A DNA stretch of 37,110 nucleotides from NCBI GenBank assembly GCA_001822675.1, contig MHRY01000005.1, forward strand, positions 1 to 37,110, given 5' to 3'. Positions 1,548 to 12,641 of the stretch are shown here, piece by piece (positions within the stretch are counted from its first letter, which is position 1; each line of letters begins with the position of its first letter). Both the position numbers and the translations under genes were made by a program. This stretch comes from Candidatus Taylorbacteria bacterium RIFCSPLOWO2_01_FULL_45_34b (GTDB lineage Bacteria; Patescibacteriota; Minisyncoccia; Phycocordibacterales; DSPV01). The notes under the pieces are model-generated. The model made no database searches, had not been told where the DNA came from, and saw only the letters and a list, made by a program, of their open reading frames with translations.

Positions 1548-1631
1548 AAATGGACAAAAAGCCAGACCTTTGGGGGTCTGGCTTTGGCGAGCGCAATCTT
1601 CATCAGGTTAGGCTTGCTTTTCTCTCGCCTC

Positions 1632-1910
1632 TGAAAGAACAACAAAAGGGTGAGGTTGAATTACTTTTTCGTTATCATTGCGAGTATCTCCTCGCCCCCT
1701 CTCATTTTTCGATGAGAAAATTTCTCCCACCCTGTTATTTGACAGGGTGGGGAACACAGGCTGAACATCATCTTCTTATCGCCATTAACAAGTCTGCCTG
1801 TGAAAACTGTGAAAAGGAGTTCTCACGCACTCTTCCGAAGTATGTGTGGGGCGAGGAACACATATTGATTTTTCAAATGACACCAGTTCGGTGTTCCGGT
1901 CACACTCTAT
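1632..1910 (+). ncRNA. Hairpin array 1 (putative structured ncRNA or ssDNA element)
   Basis: TGAAAGAACAAC box 1632-1643; GGGTGAGG(1648-1655)-34 nt-CCTCGCCC(1690-1697); hairpin 1726-1751; CACAGGC(1755-1761)-34 nt-GCCTGTG(1796-1802); GGAACAC(1855-1861)-29 nt-GTGTTCC(1891-1897). Confidence 0.55.
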
Positions 1911-1931
1911 AACGCTTCTCTTGTTTTAGCA

Positions 1932-1987
1932 AGAAAAAAACCACTCCATGCTTTCGCAGGGAATGGCTTGTATGATCGGTTTTTTTA
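1932..1987. terminator. Likely bidirectional intrinsic terminator between array 1 (+) and IS110-like gene (-)
   Basis: AAAAAAACCACTCC...GGAATGGCTTGTATGATCGGTTTTTTT; CCACTCC/GGAATGG stem with T-runs on both strands. Confidence 0.6.
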
Positions 1988-2052
1988 ATTCCTACTCAAT
2001 ATATGAGCTTGATTTCTCTGCCGATCACCAAAGAGTCAAATGATGCGACGAC

Positions 2053-3774
2053 CTAGGCCGCGAGCTGGCCGGATTTCCGCCCCCGTTCCGCTTCCATCTC
2101 GTCGATGTACTTCCACCATTCATTGAACATCCAGATCAGGAACTCGGTCCCGAGTCGCCACCCGGCTTTTTTGTGAATGTGGATGTCAGTATTAATCGAT
2201 TTCCCCGGCCGGTAGATGACTGATCCATCCGGGAGGGTTACGGTGTAGAAGCCGTTTGAGACATCCCACTTGCCTTTGTGGAGAGGAATCCGTTCCTCTG
2301 GAACGACCAGATTCTTTACCCACCTTCCTTTCCCGGCGGTTCCGTTCCCTGTTTCTTCACCGGGAGTTTCGTTACCATCATCTTTGTCGTTGTCACCTTC
2401 AGCCTTCATTTCAATTCTGGCTCCGGTGTAGGTGTGTGATTTTCCTTTCCCGAACACCACGGTGCACGATCCCTCTCTGCCGGCGGCCACTTCAGCGTCT
2501 GGAGTGTATTCTCGTTTGATGAGCGAGATTTTAGTGAAGCAGATGAGTTCTGGAAGCGGATTTGTCGCTCGCATCTGCGCTTTGATTGCCCGGAACCGCG
2601 ATCCCCATGGGGTGTCGGTTTGCAGTGCGAATTGATTGTTCACCAAAAGCCAGATGGCTTGTTTGATTTCCGGATTGCCCGGAGTGTTGCCGGGACCGCG
2701 GCGGAATCGCTGGATGGTTGGCCTCCCATTTTTACCTTTTACAGCCGCGTAGCCCGTGAATCGGAGGAAACTCCCCACTCGTTCTCGCGGGAATCGCCTC
2801 GGATCACGGACAGCGGACATAACTTTTCCGAAGCCACGCGGCCCGAATCCTTTGATGTCCGCGAAGAGTTTTTGGTACAGCGGATGCTGTTTAATAGTAT
2901 CCTCGAGCCTCCTCTGTTCGCGGGCTTCAGCTTCCTTCACGACTTTTACGCTTTGGTTGCCCATCTTCGCTTTTAGAACTTCCTCGGCCAAGCGAGCTCC
3001 AACATATTCGTTTGAGACGTATACGGCATGTTCTGCCACCGCTTCCGCTCTTTGCACCACCTTTTTTCTCTGTGTCATCGCCTGTTCTGTCAGGTCCCAA
3101 GAATGCATCACCTCCCAAGAGATGACATCAGTCTCGTACATTTGGTGGAACAGTGTTGGTTTATTCTTCCATATGTCGAGAAGCAACTCCGCGTCGTCTT
3201 CTTTGACCGCGTGTTTTTCGTCCCTTTGAACTTTTAGGTTTTTGGGGGCAGTTAAGAAAACTCGAGCTCCGACTTCTGTTGCCTTGTTGATGAGGGCGAT
3301 GACGAGACTAAAACCACTGCCCCCGAAGATTCCGATTAGAGTGTCTCCCGTTCTGACACCATCGAAGTCTTCCCCGACTTTGTTGGGGATGCCGACTAGT
3401 TTTTTCGTCTTGTTCGGCGCCCGACCTTTCGTCTCGATTTCGAGATCATTTTCTTTCCAACCGGCCGCGAGCGTGGATTCTAGAGTTTCCTCCACGACGT
3501 TTGGTTCCTTCGCTGTTGGTTTGTTTGGTTTCCGGAACCGGATGTGGTGTCTCTCGCGCGAGGAGAGATCTTCGCCGATCTGGGCGTCCCGCCAGATGGT
3601 TGGGAACTTGTGGTGGACAAAGTCCAATTCACCGTAGGCATCATCGGCTTTGAGGAGCCGGTTGCCTTCACCGTTTTGGATGGCGAAAACTGTTGGTCTC
3701 GCCTCGCCACTGCGCGTTTTTTTCCTTCTATGCTGGAACGCAATTAAGCGTCCAGCGGTTTTTTCTGTGCTCAT
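2053..3774 (-). CDS. Divergent IS110-family-like protein (Transposase_20/HhH C-terminal region), ~573 aa with extensions
   Basis: LFADIKGFGPRGFGKVMSAVRDPRRFPRERVGSFLRFTGYAAVKGKNGRPTIQRFRRGPGNTPGNPEIKQAIWLLVNNQF resembles the IS116/IS110/IS902 C-terminal domain; upstream GARVFLTAPKNLKVQ...KEDDAELLLDIW resembles the DEDD-domain K.D..DA..L block. Strong SD AAAGGTGG before ATG at 3774. Confidence 0.7.
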   Translation of the reverse strand: MSTEKTAGRLIAFQHRRKKTRSGEARPTVFAIQNGEGNRLLKADDAYGELDFVHHKFPTIWRDAQIGEDLSSRERHHIRFRKPNKPTAKEPNVVEETLESTLAAGWKENDLEIETKGRAPNKTKKLVGIPNKVGEDFDGVRTGDTLIGIFGGSGFSLVIALINKATEVGARVFLTAPKNLKVQRDEKHAVKEDDAELLLDIWKNKPTLFHQMYETDVISWEVMHSWDLTEQAMTQRKKVVQRAEAVAEHAVYVSNEYVGARLAEEVLKAKMGNQSVKVVKEAEAREQRRLEDTIKQHPLYQKLFADIKGFGPRGFGKVMSAVRDPRRFPRERVGSFLRFTGYAAVKGKNGRPTIQRFRRGPGNTPGNPEIKQAIWLLVNNQFALQTDTPWGSRFRAIKAQMRATNPLPELICFTKISLIKREYTPDAEVAAGREGSCTVVFGKGKSHTYTGARIEMKAEGDNDKDDGNETPGEETGNGTAGKGRWVKNLVVPEERIPLHKGKWDVSNGFYTVTLPDGSVIYRPGKSINTDIHIHKKAGWRLGTEFLIWMFNEWWKYIDEMEAERGRKSGQLAA

Positions 3775-3833
3775 TTCCACCTTTCCGTTTTGAGACCTCT
3801 ATGGGTCAGTTCGTTTTGGTTTACGGACAGGAG

Positions 3834-4376
3834 GCGGCTAGCACTCGCTAGTCGCATCATTTGTGGTGAATGCGGCTATGATTAACTTCATTTTGAATGT
3901 TACTATCTCCTCACATCACCACGTCTCTCCTGTCATCCGACAGGAGAAATTTTCAAAGAACAAATAAAGAACTAAACGTCTCACCTAGGGGTGAGACGGG
4001 GAGGGTGCACTCTACTTCTCAAGTAAGTTCAACCATCTCCCTCCTCACACGCCACAAGTCTTATGGAGTGTGAGGAAGGAGGGTGGAAAAAGTTTCACCT
4101 CGTGTGTGTTTCTTTTTCTTCCACCCTCTTATTCCGCGAAGATTTGATCTTCGCGGAAAAATATTACTAAAAAAAAGAACAGGGGCGTGGTATGAACCGC
4201 TTCAGGTGAGGAAACATTCCCCACGCCCCTCTCCCCATACACTCGAGGTTTTGACCTCCCGGTGGCTTTGGGGAAAGAAAATTTTTGTAGTTGCCTCGCG
4301 ACTATAAGATCGTGAGGCGACTCCTTGGTGTAGCAGGACTATCTGGTTCAAAACAGGGCAGTTTCTTCACACCAAG
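3834..4376. ncRNA. Hairpin array 2 (putative structured ncRNA or ssDNA element)
   Basis: Hairpins 3834-3855, 3926-3947, 3977-3998; box AAAGAACAA 3955-3963; GGGAGGG-33 nt-CCCTCCT (3999-4045); GAGGGTGGAA-30 nt-TTCCACCCTC (4079-4128); TTCCGCGAAGAT-TTG-ATCTTCGCGGAA (4132-4158); AGGGGCGTGG-30 nt-CCACGCCCCT (4181-4230); 4290-4321; CTTGGTGT-37 nt-ACACCAAG (4324-4376). Confidence 0.55.
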
Positions 4377-4408
4377 TCATCCAAAACCACTCTACAACAC
4401 GATATATA

Positions 4409-5260
4409 TTATTGCAAGGATTTCATAAATGATTGATAGGGCATCTCTTTTTTGCTCTCGGGCAGGACTTTTTCGATCACAAGAGTACCATTTTCGAAAC
4501 GAGCTTCTGTTATTTTCACCCGCACTTCAGTCCCGTTTTTTTCGGCAATAAAGTATGTGCCGATGGTTCCCTTGAAAGCGCGAATTTTTCGCCAATTAGT
4601 CTCGCCACTTTCCGAGAAATCGATTTTCCCGTCGGTTTTCCCTAATTTTTTCGTGTAGGTAGCCTCGGCTTCATTTTGTGGTATCGCTTTGGTTTTTCCG
4701 CTTAGCCAGTCTGGAATACTATCAGCAAGAATCCGCGCTCCTTCTTTAGCCAGTATATCCTCAAGTTCTTGCGCGTTTACAGTTTCCATCTCAACCAGCA
4801 CTTTTTCTTTTTTAATAATTGGGCCGTGATCCATTTTTTCATCCATCTTCATAATAGTAACGCCGGTTTCTTTTTCACCATTCAGAATCGCGCTTTGGAT
4901 CGGTGTTGGACCGCGGAATTTCGGTAGGAGCGACGGGTGGACATTGAGCGAGCCGTGTTTGGGAATATCCAAAATTTTTTTCGGAATTATTTTGCCATAC
5001 GAGGCGACAATGAAAAGATCAAGGGGTCTTTTTTTTAGTTCCTCTAAAAATTGGCCGTCGAGTGCGTCCGGCTGGAGCACCTCAATTTTTCGGATGTCTG
5101 CCCACTTTTTTATCGGCGGGGGAGTAACTTTAAGCCCCCTACCTTTTGGGCGATCTCTCCTAGTTACAATCAAAGAAGGCAGAACCTTTCTTCGCTCAAG
5201 TTCGTCAAGCACTCCAAGTGAAAAAGTTGATGTTCCAAAAAACGCGATAGTTGGTTTCAT
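4409..5260 (-). CDS. fmt: Methionyl-tRNA formyltransferase
   Basis: IAFFGTSTFSLGVLDEL, YGKIIPKKILDIPKHGSLNVHPSLLPKFRGPTPIQSAILNGEKETGVTIMKMDEKMDHGPII. Confidence 0.96.
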   Translation of the reverse strand: MKPTIAFFGTSTFSLGVLDELERRKVLPSLIVTRRDRPKGRGLKVTPPPIKKWADIRKIEVLQPDALDGQFLEELKKRPLDLFIVASYGKIIPKKILDIPKHGSLNVHPSLLPKFRGPTPIQSAILNGEKETGVTIMKMDEKMDHGPIIKKEKVLVEMETVNAQELEDILAKEGARILADSIPDWLSGKTKAIPQNEAEATYTKKLGKTDGKIDFSESGETNWRKIRAFKGTIGTYFIAEKNGTEVRVKITEARFENGTLVIEKVLPESKKEMPYQSFMKSLQ

Positions 5261-5261
5261 G

Positions 5262-5810
5262 TTATATAGCGGGCGTTAGATCATCGGGCAGCGACTCATG
5301 AAGATCTTCTGCTTTATCAATGAACAGAACGCCGTTAAGGTGGTCAATTTCGTGTTGGAAAATTTGCGCCAGAAGCCCGCTTGCGCCTCGAGTGAATTCT
5401 TTGCCGTGCTCATCCGTCGCTCGAACCGAGGTTTTAACAGCGCGCTTCACTTTCCCATAGAGCCATCTCACGCTCAAACAACCTTCTTCCATAAGCGTCT
5501 CTTTTTTTGAAAGTTTAGTAATAGTTGGGTTGATGAACACGCCGTCTGGTTCAGGAGGAGTTTCTGCGTCTTCTGTTTCTACTTTAATTTTATTTTTACC
5601 CCGTGCCAGAATTTTTCCCGATACGACAAAGATGCGAGAGGCGACGCCGATTTGCGGTGCGGCAATGGCAACCCCATCGTCTTGGCTTCCGAGAGCTTCT
5701 TTCATCTCCGCGATCACTTTTTGGATTTTAGGGGAAAGAATGTCTTTTTTTGAGACTTCTTTGGCCTTTTTGCGGAGAATGGGGTTAGTTTTTTGGACGA
5801 TTTCTCTCAT
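5262..5810 (-). CDS. def: Peptide deformylase
   Basis: Motifs GVAIAAPQIG, EEGCLSV, QHEIDHLNGVLFID. Confidence 0.97.
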   Translation of the reverse strand: MREIVQKTNPILRKKAKEVSKKDILSPKIQKVIAEMKEALGSQDDGVAIAAPQIGVASRIFVVSGKILARGKNKIKVETEDAETPPEPDGVFINPTITKLSKKETLMEEGCLSVRWLYGKVKRAVKTSVRATDEHGKEFTRGASGLLAQIFQHEIDHLNGVLFIDKAEDLHESLPDDLTPAI

Positions 5811-5847
5811 TGGTTCATTATAGGTTTATTGACTCATAATTTCAATT

Positions 5848-5890
5848 TATAATTACAACACAAAAATCAAGATGACGAGGTTCGACCTCG
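5848..5890 (+). repeat. Second (half) copy of the TATAATTACAACACAAAAA...TGACGAGGTTCGACCTCG repeat
   Basis: 19-nt and 18-nt exact matches to 1504-1522 and 1529-1546. Confidence 0.8.
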
Positions 5891-6070
5891 GCGGAAATTA
5901 CAAGTAAAAAAGGCCGTCCCTCGAAAACGGGGACGGCCAAGCAACTTGTCGGTTCTCTTTTCTAAAGACGTTTCTACTTCTGGCGTCGGTTTTGCCGCCG
6001 CTTTACATAGGGCGAGGACAAAAAGAAGGCAGATGAACAGGTACACGAGGATGAACAGAATGATGAACAT
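5867..6070 (-). CDS. Small membrane-peptide ORF; intrinsic terminator lies upstream of its stop codon (putative nonstop mRNA)
   Basis: MFIILFILVYLFICLLFVLALCKAAAKPTPEVETSLEKRTDKLLGRPRF...; promoter and GAAAGAAAG SD-like sequence upstream; terminator 5905-5938 inside the frame. Confidence 0.5.
   Translation of the reverse strand: MFIILFILVYLFICLLFVLALCKAAAKPTPEVETSLEKRTDKLLGRPRFRGTAFFTCNFRRGRTSSS
5905..5938 (-). terminator. Intrinsic terminator (minus strand)
   Basis: GGCCGTCCC CGTTTTCGA GGGACGGCC followed by TTTTTT on minus strand. Confidence 0.85.
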
Positions 6071-6087
6071 AACTTTCTTTCAAAAAG

Positions 6088-6116
6088 ATATTACTCATAT
6101 TAGGATTTTGTGTCAA
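6088..6116 (-). promoter_or_regulatory. Sigma70-type promoter for the small membrane ORF
   Basis: On minus strand TTGACA-N17-TAATAT (6116-6111 and 6093-6088). Confidence 0.75.
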
Positions 6117-6198
6117 TACACTTGTTTTACGCGGTCGCTGAAATTAAGTGCATTCTTAATGTAAGCTATAGTTCGTGAAGGTCAGACTTTTACAGATT

Positions 6199-6759
6199 TG
6201 AAAGAACAACGGGTGGGGTTCGTTCGTATTCATTATGTGGTTTTATTTCTCCCCACCCGTGCTTTGGTCTCGCGAACGAAACCAAAAAATGTTGGCGGCG
6301 GGGTGATAACGGTGGACATCAGTCAATCTTTTTTTTCTTCACCTCTGCCGCCAAGAGGACTGTGCGGGTGGACTTTTTCATTCAGTTGAACCCGGTTCTC
6401 TCCCGCACAAGAAAGTGTCCCCGCCCCGACGAAGTCGAGGGCGGGGAAGTGTGAGTAAAGGAACGCATCAAACGGTTTCCAATTTCTCTCACACAACAAA
6501 GAGTGGTGGGTTATGGGGTGCTTCAATTTTAACCGCCATTTTCTTCCACCACTTCCTCTTTTGAGGAAAATTCTATTGCCCCGTCCCGACTTTGTCGAGG
6601 ACGGGGCAGAAGAGGTTTCGGTAATTACGGTCATCATAGTTAATTGCCGGTATCCCCGAAACCGCCACTTCCATAATGGCACAAGTCAATCATTCCGTCA
6701 AAGTATTATGCCACACCTCAAAATGGCGAGGTTCAACCTCGCCATTTTGAGGTGTTTTT
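6199..6759 (+). ncRNA. Hairpin array 3 (putative structured ncRNA or ssDNA element), ends in terminator
   Basis: TGAAAGAACAAC box 6199-6210, then six stem-loops: ACGGGTGGGG-32-CCCCACCCGT (6209-6260); GGCGGC..GGTGA-32-TCACC..GCCGCC (6294-6352); TGTGCGGG-33-CCCGCACA (6361-6409); GTGTGAG-32-CTCACAC (6449-6494); AGTGGTGGG-34-TCCACCACT (6502-6553, closing G.T); GGTTTCGG-34-CCGAAACC (6614-6663). Confidence 0.65.
6714..6759 (+). terminator. Perfect 19-bp hairpin with T-run, plus strand
   Basis: CACCTCAAAATGGCGAGGT TCA ACCTCGCCATTTTGAGGTG TTTTTA. Confidence 0.85.
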
Positions 6760-8665
6760 ATAACAGGCTATCAGGGTCAACATGAATTTGATATTTTTGT
6801 GGCAGGGAACGGAAAATTGAAAGAAGTTCTGAATTTGGCCAATTAGTTTTATCCAAACGGAGCAGGCCGTTTAACACGAAAAGTCCTTTTATTTTTTCAA
6901 CAAAGGCAGGAAAAATTATGAGTTCACGCGGCGCCAGCATTTTTTTGAGTTTTTCCATTTCTTCACGAATCGTTTCTTTTTTGCCCGTCAGGCTAATTTT
7001 AATGAGAATCTTGAAAGGGGGATAACCGAGTATTTTTCGCGCCTCAATCTCACTTTCATAAAAAGGCGATAGATTGCCGTTTAGGGCTGATGTTAGAGAA
7101 ATCTCTTCGGGGTGTCTTGTTTGGATAAGGAAGGTTTCTTCGGCCAGAGCTTTCGTTTTAAGGGCAAGGCGAAGGACTTTTTCTCGAATACGGAAGTCCG
7201 GCAAGGAAAAGAGCGCGTCAACTGATCCGATAGCGGCCGCCATGACTTTTTCTTTGAGGTAGGGGAGAGCTATTTCGGTGCCAAGAAGAACACTGCCTGC
7301 TGTACTATAAAAATTTTGAACAATTTTTTCGGCTTCAGTTTCATTCTTGATTTTATCGCGATCGAAAACAGAAAGCGGAATATGCGGAAAGGCGTCTTTA
7401 AAATCTTCCGCGAGTCGATCAATGCCGACTCCAAGCGCGGTTAATTTCCAACTTCCACAGTGCAAGCATTTTTCTTTGGCAGTTCTTTTTTCTCCACAAC
7501 GGTGGCAGAGGAAAAAATTTTCACCCGGATTTTTTCCTTTGTGGAGCGTAGTTGGCGCGCTGCAATTTTTACAGAGCACAACCGTACCACAGTCCCCACA
7601 GACAGTGCTTCCCGAGAGGCCGCGTCTTGCCGATAGAATAAAAAGTCGCCCGTTTCGTTTTTGGATTGACTCTGTTAACGCTTTTAGCTCCAGGCTGATA
7701 GAAATAAAGCCTTTTTTGGATTCCGGTTTATATTTTTTCATGTCGACGATAGAGCTTTTTACTTTATCTCGGTTTCTTCCTCCTGACTCATTTTCCCGAA
7801 TTAGTTCGGCATTTTTTTGGCGGACGTATGTTTCGACCCGAAGCAGCTTGTCTGCAAAAATCAAACGGCTGCCATTTTTTTCGGCTAGACGTTCCGCAAA
7901 CGTGCGCGCGTCAAGATACGGTTTCTTTCGTGAGATATAGTTTCTGTCTCCTTCAGCCTCGATGATAATTGTCCCCATGTCCCGTCTTGGCATGCTCAAA
8001 AATGACTCTGTGCCGATTAAGACAATTGGGTGCGAGTTTTCTCTGGCAGAATCCCATTTTTTTAGAAGGTTTTTTTTGCTTGTTTTACTGTGGAGGGCGT
8101 AGGCATATTCCTCAATACCTTTCTCAAGAAGGTGTCCTATTTTAAGGACGTCTGCGTTGGTAGGACAGAGAATAAAGATTGATGTTTTTTTGGCGAATGC
8201 TTCCCGAATAATTTTTTTATATTCTGTCACGCGACTGTCCTCATCTCCCTCGAGCGTGAATTTTTCCGCTTCGCTTTCTTTTTTCTCCTTCCCCTTTTCA
8301 TTTCCTCGAGCAAGCATTTTTGTTTTTTGGAGATTTTCGAGGATTATTTTACTGCTCATTTCTTTAAGCACTGCTCCGGGTGTCGTCGCGAAATAGTCCG
8401 CCATATCTTTTGCGGTTTCAAAAAATTCGGACGTGAAAAAAGCAGGTGCGAGTAATTTACCCGCTTTTTGTAGTTTGAAGTTGGCTCTACGTAAATTTGA
8501 TTTAACCGAACGACCTTCTCTAATCTCCACAATAAGGGCGGGGGAGAGTGAACCGCGAATCGGCACTGAAATAAGCGTTCCCACTTTTGCTTCCGTTAGG
8601 GTAAAGTACGAAAGGGTTTCTTTGCCGATTCCCTTACGAAGCGGTATGACCTCTATAATATACAT
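6758..8665 (-). CDS. priA: PriA-like primosomal protein with degenerate helicase motifs
   Basis: Zn-binding block CGDCGTVVLCKNCSAPTTLHKG...FLCHRCGEKRTAKEKCLHCGS; HSKTSKKNLLKKWDSARE..IVLIGTESFLSMP aligns with PriA. Confidence 0.88.
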   Translation of the reverse strand: MYIIEVIPLRKGIGKETLSYFTLTEAKVGTLISVPIRGSLSPALIVEIREGRSVKSNLRRANFKLQKAGKLLAPAFFTSEFFETAKDMADYFATTPGAVLKEMSSKIILENLQKTKMLARGNEKGKEKKESEAEKFTLEGDEDSRVTEYKKIIREAFAKKTSIFILCPTNADVLKIGHLLEKGIEEYAYALHSKTSKKNLLKKWDSARENSHPIVLIGTESFLSMPRRDMGTIIIEAEGDRNYISRKKPYLDARTFAERLAEKNGSRLIFADKLLRVETYVRQKNAELIRENESGGRNRDKVKSSIVDMKKYKPESKKGFISISLELKALTESIQKRNGRLFILSARRGLSGSTVCGDCGTVVLCKNCSAPTTLHKGKNPGENFFLCHRCGEKRTAKEKCLHCGSWKLTALGVGIDRLAEDFKDAFPHIPLSVFDRDKIKNETEAEKIVQNFYSTAGSVLLGTEIALPYLKEKVMAAAIGSVDALFSLPDFRIREKVLRLALKTKALAEETFLIQTRHPEEISLTSALNGNLSPFYESEIEARKILGYPPFKILIKISLTGKKETIREEMEKLKKMLAPRELIIFPAFVEKIKGLFVLNGLLRLDKTNWPNSELLSIFRSLPQKYQIHVDPDSLL

Positions 8666-9618: not shown

Positions 9619-11136
9619 TTATTCTTTAAACACACTTATTTTGGCGCCGAGTTTTGAAAGACGGCTGGCCAAGTCTTCATAACCGCGGTTGATACTGTAG
9701 ACATTTCGAAGTATTGAAGTACCGGTCGCGCCAAGCATACCAACTAGGAGAATGGCCGCGGGTCGAAGCGCCGGCGGGCAGATAGCTTCAGTTGCTCTTA
9801 GTTTTGTCGGTCCATTCACATAAAAGCGGTGTGGATCGGCCAAAATGGTGTCAGCCCCGAGCTTCTCTAGGTCTTTATAATATATAGCGCGCTTTTCGTA
9901 GACCCAGTCGTGAATGAAAGTCTGACCCTCAGCGACTGTGCCGATGACCGCGAAAAAAGGCAGGTTGTCAATGTTGAGTCCGGGGTAGGGGCGGCTTTCA
10001 ATTTTTTCTTCGAGCGCTGTTAGTTTCGATGGAAAGGTTTTGATGTCAACGAGGTTTGTTTCGCCGTTTAGCGCTTTATACTTTTTCAAAATTTTATAGC
10101 GGAAGCCCATTTTCTCAAGTTTCAAAAGTTCGATTTCAAGAAAATCAATCGGACAGCGCTTAATAGTAATACTTGATTTAGTGACGATTGCCACGGAGAG
10201 AAAAAACATACTTTCAATCGGGTCTTCGCTGATAAAATAAGAAATCGACTGGTCAATTTTTTCTTTGCCGATGATGGTGAGGGTAGTGGTGCCAATTCCT
10301 TCGATTGAGACCCCGAGCGAACGCAGAAAAAAACAAAGATCCTGAACTTGATAATTCGCCGAGGCGAATTTAATAACTGTTTTCCCGGGAATTCGCGCCG
10401 CGGCCATAATGGCGTTTTCGGTGACGGTATCGCCTGATTCGTAAAGGACGACTTCATTCGGCACTAATTTTTTGTGAGAGACTTCGTAGTATGTTGATTT
10501 GGTCTCAATCGAAACTCCGAATTTTTCGAGCGCGAAAAAATGCGGTTTGACCGTCCGGCTCCCAAGTTTACAGCCACCAGCTTGGGGCAGGCGGAATTTT
10601 TTTAAATGGTGGATAAGCGGGCCAATCATCATAATGATGCTCCGCGTTTTTATGGCGGCTTCCTCATCTAGTTTAGAAAGGTCAATATGCTCTGGCGGTC
10701 TTATTTCGAGATCGTTTTCAAGCCACCGGATGGAGAAATCGATGCTTTTCATGACTTCAATAATGCGATGCACTTCCTCAATTTTCGGCGTATTTTTAAG
10801 GAGTGTTTTGCTCTGGTTTAGTATGGAAGCGCATAAGAGGGCTACGGCGGAATTTTTTGAAGATTTGGTCACGATAGTGCCATGGAGTTTGTGTCCGCCT
10901 TCAATTTTTAAGTTGAGTGATCCAGATGAAACGCTTACAATCGGACGATTGAGCGCCCGGCTTATCTTTTCGAGCATTTCGGTGCCGAGATTTTGTTCGC
11001 CTTTCTCGATTCGCGCTACGGCGCTTTGCGTGGTTTTAAGCGTTTTGGCCAAGTCGCTTTGCGTTAAGCCACCGCGCTCTCGGAGCTCACCGATAAGCTG
11101 GCCAATTTTGTTTAATTTTGAATCAACTTTTTCCAT
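9619..11136 (-). CDS. murA: UDP-N-acetylglucosamine 1-carboxyvinyltransferase (MurA) with N-terminal XRE-type HTH
   Basis: MurA motif LPQAGGCKLGSRTVKPHFFALEKFG with catalytic Cys; N-term IGQLIGELRERGGLTQSDLAKTLKTTQSAVARIEKGEQNLGTEMLEKISRALN. Confidence 0.9.
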   Translation of the reverse strand: MEKVDSKLNKIGQLIGELRERGGLTQSDLAKTLKTTQSAVARIEKGEQNLGTEMLEKISRALNRPIVSVSSGSLNLKIEGGHKLHGTIVTKSSKNSAVALLCASILNQSKTLLKNTPKIEEVHRIIEVMKSIDFSIRWLENDLEIRPPEHIDLSKLDEEAAIKTRSIIMMIGPLIHHLKKFRLPQAGGCKLGSRTVKPHFFALEKFGVSIETKSTYYEVSHKKLVPNEVVLYESGDTVTENAIMAAARIPGKTVIKFASANYQVQDLCFFLRSLGVSIEGIGTTTLTIIGKEKIDQSISYFISEDPIESMFFLSVAIVTKSSITIKRCPIDFLEIELLKLEKMGFRYKILKKYKALNGETNLVDIKTFPSKLTALEEKIESRPYPGLNIDNLPFFAVIGTVAEGQTFIHDWVYEKRAIYYKDLEKLGADTILADPHRFYVNGPTKLRATEAICPPALRPAAILLVGMLGATGTSILRNVYSINRGYEDLASRLSKLGAKISVFKE

Positions 11137-11474: not shown

Positions 11475-11627
11475 ATGTTTAGCCTTTCAAATTCTGTTTT
11501 TACAATACTACGCTATATATTTTTTGCAAACTCCCCTCACCCAACACTTTATATCCCGATTCGATTTATCGAATCGAGGATCCTCGACATTGCGAAGCAA
11601 CTGTCGGGACTATATACTACTCCCCAC

Positions 11628-12641
11628 ATGGCTTTCTTTTCAAAAAGATTGGGGATTGATCTTGGCACTGCGAACACGCTAGTGTTTGTGCCGGATAAAG
11701 GGATTGTACTCAATGAGCCGTCAGTGGTGGCTGTTTCCGAAGGTGGCAGTCGAATATTGGCCGTTGGTATTGAAGCAAAAAGGATGGTTGGGAAAACTCC
11801 TGACAGCATTGTGGCATACAAGCCGATGAAGGACGGCGTTATTGCCGATTACAAAGTGACCGAAGCGATGCTTCGTTATTTCATAAACAAGGCGCTTGGC
11901 AGATGGAATATTTGGAAGCCCGACGTCATGATTTCCGTACCGGCCGGTGTGACTTCAACGGAGCGTCGCGCGGTCATTGAAGCCGCGCTTAAAGCCGGAG
12001 CGAAAAATGCTTACGTGGTTAAAGAGCCGATTTTAGCGGCAATTGGCGCGGGTATTCCCATTCACGAACCGGTTGGGCACATGGTTATTGATGTTGGTGG
12101 CGGTACGGCTGACGTCGCGGTTATTTCGCTTGGCGGGATTGTCAGTTCAACATCGGTTAAATGCGCGGGAAATCGCATCGATTATGCTATTACCGATTAC
12201 ATCAAAAAAACTTTTAACCTCGCGATTGGGGAGAAAATGGCTGAAGATATCAAAATCTCCATTGGCTCGGCAATTCCACTCGAAGAGGAATTGGTCATGA
12301 CGATTAAAGGCAGAGATTTTTTGACCGGACTACCACGAAGCGCGGAAATAAAAACAAACGAGATTGTGAAAGCGATTTCAAAAGAACTCCGAGAAATAAT
12401 TAAGGCCATCAAAGACGTTCTCCAAGAAACGCCGCCGGAACTGGCTTCCGATATTATTGACAAGGGAATCATCATGACCGGCGGCTCATCACTCCTTCGC
12501 AATTTTCCCGAGCTGGTTTTCCGGCGCACCGGTGTCAAGGCGACGCTTGCTAAAGACGCGCTTTATTGTGTGGCCAATGGCACAGGCGTGGCGCTTGAGC
12601 ATCTCGACACCTATAAAAAAAGTATTATTGCGAAACGCTAA
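11628..12641 (+). CDS. mreB: Rod shape-determining protein MreB (paralog 1)
   Basis: LGIDLGTANTLVFVPDKGIVLNEPSVVAV, VIDVGGGTADVAVISLGG, IIMTGGSSLLRNFPELV. Confidence 0.95.
   Translation: MAFFSKRLGIDLGTANTLVFVPDKGIVLNEPSVVAVSEGGSRILAVGIEAKRMVGKTPDSIVAYKPMKDGVIADYKVTEAMLRYFINKALGRWNIWKPDVMISVPAGVTSTERRAVIEAALKAGAKNAYVVKEPILAAIGAGIPIHEPVGHMVIDVGGGTADVAVISLGGIVSSTSVKCAGNRIDYAITDYIKKTFNLAIGEKMAEDIKISIGSAIPLEEELVMTIKGRDFLTGLPRSAEIKTNEIVKAISKELREIIKAIKDVLQETPPELASDIIDKGIIMTGGSSLLRNFPELVFRRTGVKATLAKDALYCVANGTGVALEHLDTYKKSIIAKR

Follow-up and report, generated by a model that had tools for sequence, protein, structure and literature searches.

The 37,110-nucleotide stretch analysed here (the window), contig C5 of the 777-kb draft genome of Candidatus Taylorbacteria bacterium RIFCSPLOWO2_01_FULL_45_34b (50 contigs), very probably encodes a stem-loop-type TIGR-Tas system. 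Most likely, its RNA-guided protein binds foreign DNA and leaves it uncut, with foreign DNA as the target being our guess. The system consists of a tas gene on the minus strand (2056..3774, 573 amino acids, with an alternative GTG start at 3780) and three arrays of hairpins, A, B, and C, all of which are located in gene-free stretches. A preliminary description of this DNA found the arrays, which are real, but overlooked both the tas gene lying between arrays A and B and the dispersed copies of an array elsewhere in the genome. It also regarded the arrays as an undescribed system; in fact, they are of a known kind, since stem-loop arrays of TIGR-Tas systems are presented in the article by Faure et al. 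2025 (PMC12045711).

Stem-loop arrays and their units

Array A (1648..1897, minus strand) is located downstream of tas and contains three units (1855-1897, 1755-1802, and 1648-1697). Array B (3863..4376, minus strand), upstream of tas, is composed of units 4324-4376, 4181-4230, 4077-4130, and 3998-4046 and an imperfect unit, 3863-3922, which was picked by eye from the sequence; once it is counted, there are 14 units in the window. The six units of array C (6209..6663, minus strand) occupy positions 6614-6663, 6502-6553, 6449-6494, 6361-6409, 6292-6354, and 6209-6260; some of these are separated by short plain hairpins. Apart from the imperfect one, the units were delimited by their stems and box positions, and array C has ordered stems in common with five other arrays of the same genome.

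The serial stem-loops in the three stretches are genuine, as stems outnumber those of the dinucleotide-shuffle controls in every array. With arms of at least 7 bp and loops of 28-38 nt, three stems were counted in array A, five in array B, and seven in array C, compared with 0.12, 0.52, and 0.58, respectively, in 200 shuffles. The RNA fold z-scores are -14.1 (plus strand) and -13.1 (minus strand) for array C, -10.4 for array B, and -4.5 for array A. The coordinates and loop lengths reported earlier agree with the recomputed ones, and the arms indeed vary between units yet remain complementary.

Read on the minus strand, a unit is composed of a stem, box C (AGA), spacer A of ~11 nt, a linker, box C' (TGA), spacer B of ~11 nt, a lone A, and the closing stem. 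The near-constant length of the loop is explained by this composition (AGA + ~11 + linker + TGA + ~11 + A). GA is present inside the first four loop nucleotides in 13 of 13 window units (3.1 in loop shuffles and 3 on the opposite strand), and GA located 10-13 nt ahead of the 3' arm is also found in 13 of 13 (4.0 in loop shuffles and 3 on the opposite strand). It was the window data themselves that drew attention to these positions; the independent test is provided by the nearest relative, in which both GA positions are occupied (7/7 and 7/7 units), and by the larger family. In 65 related loci of the candidate phyla radiation (CPR), a strict unit form (NN-GA-9-T-NN-loop-NN-GA-9-T-NN) in which each of the two box pairs is complementary was detected 284 times in the sense of tas, once in antisense, and twice in shuffled sequences. 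There is covariation in the inner box pair: when inner pairing was not required in the unit search, complementarity was retained in 92 of the 116 units whose box C' is not AC, whereas 59 would be expected after re-dealing. The covarying pairs correspond to the box C/D pairs of TIGR guides.

Judging by these sequence features, the RNA strand of the arrays is the minus strand, which has the sense of tas, while the preliminary description had read the non-transcribed one. The TCT/TCC that it placed before the C-rich arm is a true motif, but it represents the complement of box C (AGA/GGA); similarly, the CATCA/CTTCA at loop positions 11-15 exists as the complement of box C' (TGATG/TGAAG). The linker heptamer GTTCTTT occurs in the window arrays five times in the sense orientation and never in antisense, and unit flanks contain the hexamer GTTCTT on the sense strand in 26 of 50 related loci, compared with 5 for the other strand. 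This element is a possible processing signal.

Short plain hairpins, some of them terminator-like, are mixed in with the units and recall terminators, repetitive extragenic palindromic (REP) or miniature inverted-repeat transposable element (MITE)-like palindromes, or chance stems in skewed sequence. As an explanation of the arrays, ordinary palindromes are practically untenable in view of the shuffle controls, the box motifs at fixed positions, and the 284:1 strand bias in the relatives. attC sites, REP/MITE elements, and a bridge RNA were dropped as candidates given the shuffle controls, fixed boxes, strand bias, and many single-hairpin units. An Rfam scan of the window detected one tRNA only and left the array family unmatched. 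Like CRISPR arrays, the window has guides arranged in an array with variable spacers; unlike them, it has no constant repeat between spacers, the arms differing between units, and multi-unit blocks of distinct scaffolds are copied together, with spacers replaced within them. The earlier statement that the arrays are not CRISPR, attC, or REP was correct, and so was the idea of an RNA recognition array built of repeated modules whose structure is under selection, which matches the TIGR-Tas stem-loop arrays.

The window resembles the stem-loop type of the CPR clade, as it is presented in the article by Faure et al. (PMC12045711), in having a Nop-domain Tas beside hairpin arrays, two 8-12-nt spacers between box C/D-like motifs, variable palindromic stems, a variable linker, several sub-arrays, and a CPR host. 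It differs from that type, as far as the article describes it, in a protein that remains under the NCBIfam cut-off, in arrays that are also found far from tas, and in a third window array located across the def-fmt genes. Most relatives have boxes of the form ACGA...TGT, whereas the window boxes are AGA/TGA with a lone A.

Tas protein and its relatives

The Tas protein comprises an N-terminal RuvC-like domain devoid of the first D and of the E, a coiled coil, and a Nop/Transposase_20 region; the AlphaFold2 model (predicted local distance difference test score 88.8) indicates a large beta-rich insertion at approximately residues 405-527. No Pfam family was found above the cut-off for this protein. 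A phmmer search against the PDB revealed 9mty_A (E 1.3e-4), which is the TIGR-TasR structure containing tigRNA and target DNA. When a profile built from 11 homologues was used, the same chain matched with E 1.9e-23 and the IS621 transposase with E 1e-4. All 11 homologues (11/11) match the NCBIfam model TIGR_Tas_endo. A Foldseek search with the Tas model placed 9mty at the top, followed by IS621/ISCro4 and TasH. The window shares tandem spacers, C/D box pairing, and the Nop fold with the dual-repeat system of TaTasR (PDB 9mty); unlike it, the window has no constant edge and loop repeats, its RuvC lacks two catalytic acids, and its protein is longer, with a C-terminal beta-rich insertion.

An alignment of 34 homologues shows R or Q in the first RuvC strand (IGIRHR) where active enzymes have D, and no E in the GGSG strand. 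D or E occurs at columns 14 and ~149 in 0/34 homologues, and D194 of the DDA motif is retained. These features agree with the CPR clade of TIGR-Tas that, according to the article by Faure et al. (PMC12045711), combines an inactive RuvC, large Nop insertions, and stem arrays.

The fold similarity to IS110-type proteins, including the Transposase_20 region, and the dispersal of arrays in the genome would be in line with a bridge-RNA IS110-type mobile element, the loops being its target and donor loops and the arrays its recombination substrates. We consider this highly improbable: the closest match is TasR and not IS621, the DEDD catalytic tetrad is incomplete in the window Tas, tas is single-copy in the genome, and instead of one bridge RNA with a target and a donor loop there are many separate single-hairpin units, that is, many guides per protein.

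The family profile led to the 65 related CPR loci, with no viral loci among its matches, and a single-protein search of genome-contig and viral-contig collections revealed no close Tas relatives. The named organisms carrying the Tas gene family are CPR bacteria, like the relatives of the window. Tas homologues are present in 13 of the 297 genomes of the order.

Guide function and targets

By analogy with the literature, from which array processing, the Tas dimer, and DNA binding are inferred, transcription of the minus strand would yield array RNAs that are cleaved within the linkers into hairpin guide RNAs. Each guide, with its two ~11-nt spacers between box C/D-like motifs, would bind a Tas dimer; one spacer would pair with one strand, and the other spacer with the opposite strand, of a single adjoining DNA target. 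Two of the four acidic residues normally present in a RuvC-like domain are missing here, so the complex most likely binds, unwinds, and bends DNA without cleaving it and may in this way silence or block foreign elements.

Several points weigh against the assignment to TIGR-Tas and to binding without cutting. The window protein matches TIGR_Tas_endo with E 1.3e-20 and 74.3 bits, short of the cut-off of 100 bits; the cut-off serves for naming and does not mark a biological feature, and the protein is therefore a divergent member of the family. As the profile alignment to IS110 starts after the first strand, the motif and the model are the basis for the apparent loss of the first D. Spacer boundaries are deduced for this branch, array expression and processing into unit RNAs are predicted, and a search of IMG/VR for exact 20-mers from five units gave no match.

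The published target geometry is spacer A, 0-2 nt, and the reverse complement of spacer B; it was inferred from the 8-nt 3' overhang and the C-5 rule. When the dual spacers of 36 units were searched in the published geometry against the whole 777-kb own genome (G000), the matches equalled those of re-paired controls. The complete G015 genome likewise gave, for 12 units and both geometries, counts equal to those of re-paired spacers. Against the own ribosomal RNA (rRNA) region, the mean run of complementarity is 7.35 for the spacers and 7.29 for shuffled spacers. With the own genome, G015, and rRNA all negative, foreign DNA is the likeliest target by elimination.

A Tas with inactive nuclease residues and chromosomal arrays with promoters of their own might also act as a chromosome regulator, its dual-spacer guides repressing host promoters like nuclease-dead TnpB/Cas regulators. 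This is unlikely: in the own genome, matches of the 36 units do not exceed those of the re-paired controls, the same is true of the 12 units in G015, and spacer turnover is far more rapid than that of the scaffold. The lack of self-targets itself argues against a regulator of host genes.

A function as box C/D snoRNA-like guides for the modification of rRNA or tRNA appears very improbable. The window resembles archaeal and eukaryotic box C/D small nucleolar ribonucleoproteins in its two-spacer guide with box C/D-type motifs and in its Nop domain, and the article by Faure et al. (PMC12045711) suggests the clade as a possible intermediate. However, the window has stem-loop arrays, its spacers are not conserved and are no more complementary to the rRNA region than shuffled ones, and no fibrillarin-type partner gene was seen beside tas.

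Locus layout, array copies, and spacer turnover

In the window, array C is located between def and priA, and the block of array B, tas, and array A lies between fmt and the PPIase gene. Four genomes of the same family have the priA-def-fmt block without a TIGR-Tas system; their priA-def gaps are 21-181 nt, and in a single genome, the only one showing both, fmt and PPIase are 32 nt apart. The nearest Tas relative (57% identical) has the same neighbourhood, with the system on the opposite side of def-fmt. On the minus strand, a scan revealed TTGACG, 17 nt, and TGC-CATTAT at 6673..6701, likely the promoter of array C judging by its sequence; a promoter-like sequence containing CTTGTGCCATTATGG is common to arrays C and C1 and precedes the array on contig C1. 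A putative terminator hairpin read from the sequence follows tas (1935..1977, minus strand; CCATTCCCTGC GAAA GCATGGAGTGG TTTTTTT). Another terminator hairpin, GCCAGACCCCCAAAGGTCTGGCTTTTT, follows array A (1553..1585, minus strand), with an inverted repeat at 1558-1585 and then a minus-strand T-run.

Other elements were also noted. At 6713-6755, at the end of priA, there is a perfect 20-21-bp hairpin followed by a plus-strand T-run, with no plus-strand gene before it. Positions 1504-1546 and 5848-5890, near the arrays, carry copies of a 44-nt repeat that are 93% identical and include a CGAGGTTCGACCTCG-type palindrome. On another contig of the genome, the 16S rRNA match spans ~2.5 kb (G000:C14:28825-31320), which suggests an insertion or an intron.

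A stem-and-box scan of the genome revealed clusters on contigs C1, C45, and C48, and BLAST extension increased the number of arrays to at least six, including window array C, with five far from tas. The array C family comprises window positions 6160-6712 and the orphan arrays on these contigs, located at L042:3561-4190 (plus strand), L086:200-760 (minus strand), and L089:1270-2030 (plus), 6560-7300 (plus), and 11500-12110 (minus). The six arrays have in common the ordered stems, linkers, the heptamer GTTCTTT, and terminators, and their spacers differ. In 50 same-frame unit pairs, with the orphan units read by eye from the alignment, the arms are 90 and 85% identical and the spacers 39 and 32%; in different-frame pairs, the values are 52 and 45% for the arms and 32% for the spacers. 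One orphan unit is nearly unchanged between C1 and C48, and among the orphan arrays there is one case of a common spacer A with a differing spacer B. Array B alone, compared by BLAST with the own genome, matched itself only. No arrays of the array C kind were found in 97 relatives, and the G015, G074, G069, and G201 genomes have no orphan arrays away from the tas locus.

A similar pattern is observed in the relatives. In the nearest one, a 518-nt array block is present on both sides of tas (L029:7804-8314 and 10277-10788), and one unit of this duplicated block retains its stem and boxes, with wholly different spacers. Across 97 homologous unit pairs from 19 loci, the inner stems are 93 and 87% identical, the boxes 92-95%, the loops 76%, and the spacers 30 and 31%, compared with 26% at random; a stricter-register count gave 46-55% for the spacers because the BLAST alignment favours matches. 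In L164 (the same locus as L038), two units have a common stem, loop, and spacer A (ATGGAAATC) and a different spacer B. Both the dispersed copies of array C and the copies with a kept scaffold and replaced spacers are apparently new, being unreported in the article by Faure et al. (supplements not covered) or in other papers found. The absence of self-targets for the 36 units in the whole genome is apparently new as well.

Array blocks are duplicated inside the locus and, in the present genome, also elsewhere, after which the spacers are replaced in the retained scaffold. The spacer pattern could result either from active replacement or from selection after duplication. We tentatively propose, as a possibility that is still rather doubtful, that new guides arise by in-place spacer replacement: whole multi-unit blocks with distinct scaffolds are duplicated nearby and at orphan sites, and spacer A, spacer B, or both are then exchanged by a dedicated process, which may act on the hairpin or its RNA and leaves the stems and boxes intact. 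The rival to such a process is that the spacers change by ordinary mutation or recombination and that these changes are strongly selected. The article by Faure et al. (PMC12045711) calls the origin, expansion, and natural targets of TIGR arrays open. If true, in-place replacement would set the way in which these arrays gain guides apart from CRISPR adaptation. The copied blocks provide before-and-after comparisons that narrow the models of guide acquisition, and the loci carrying them can be used to test these models.

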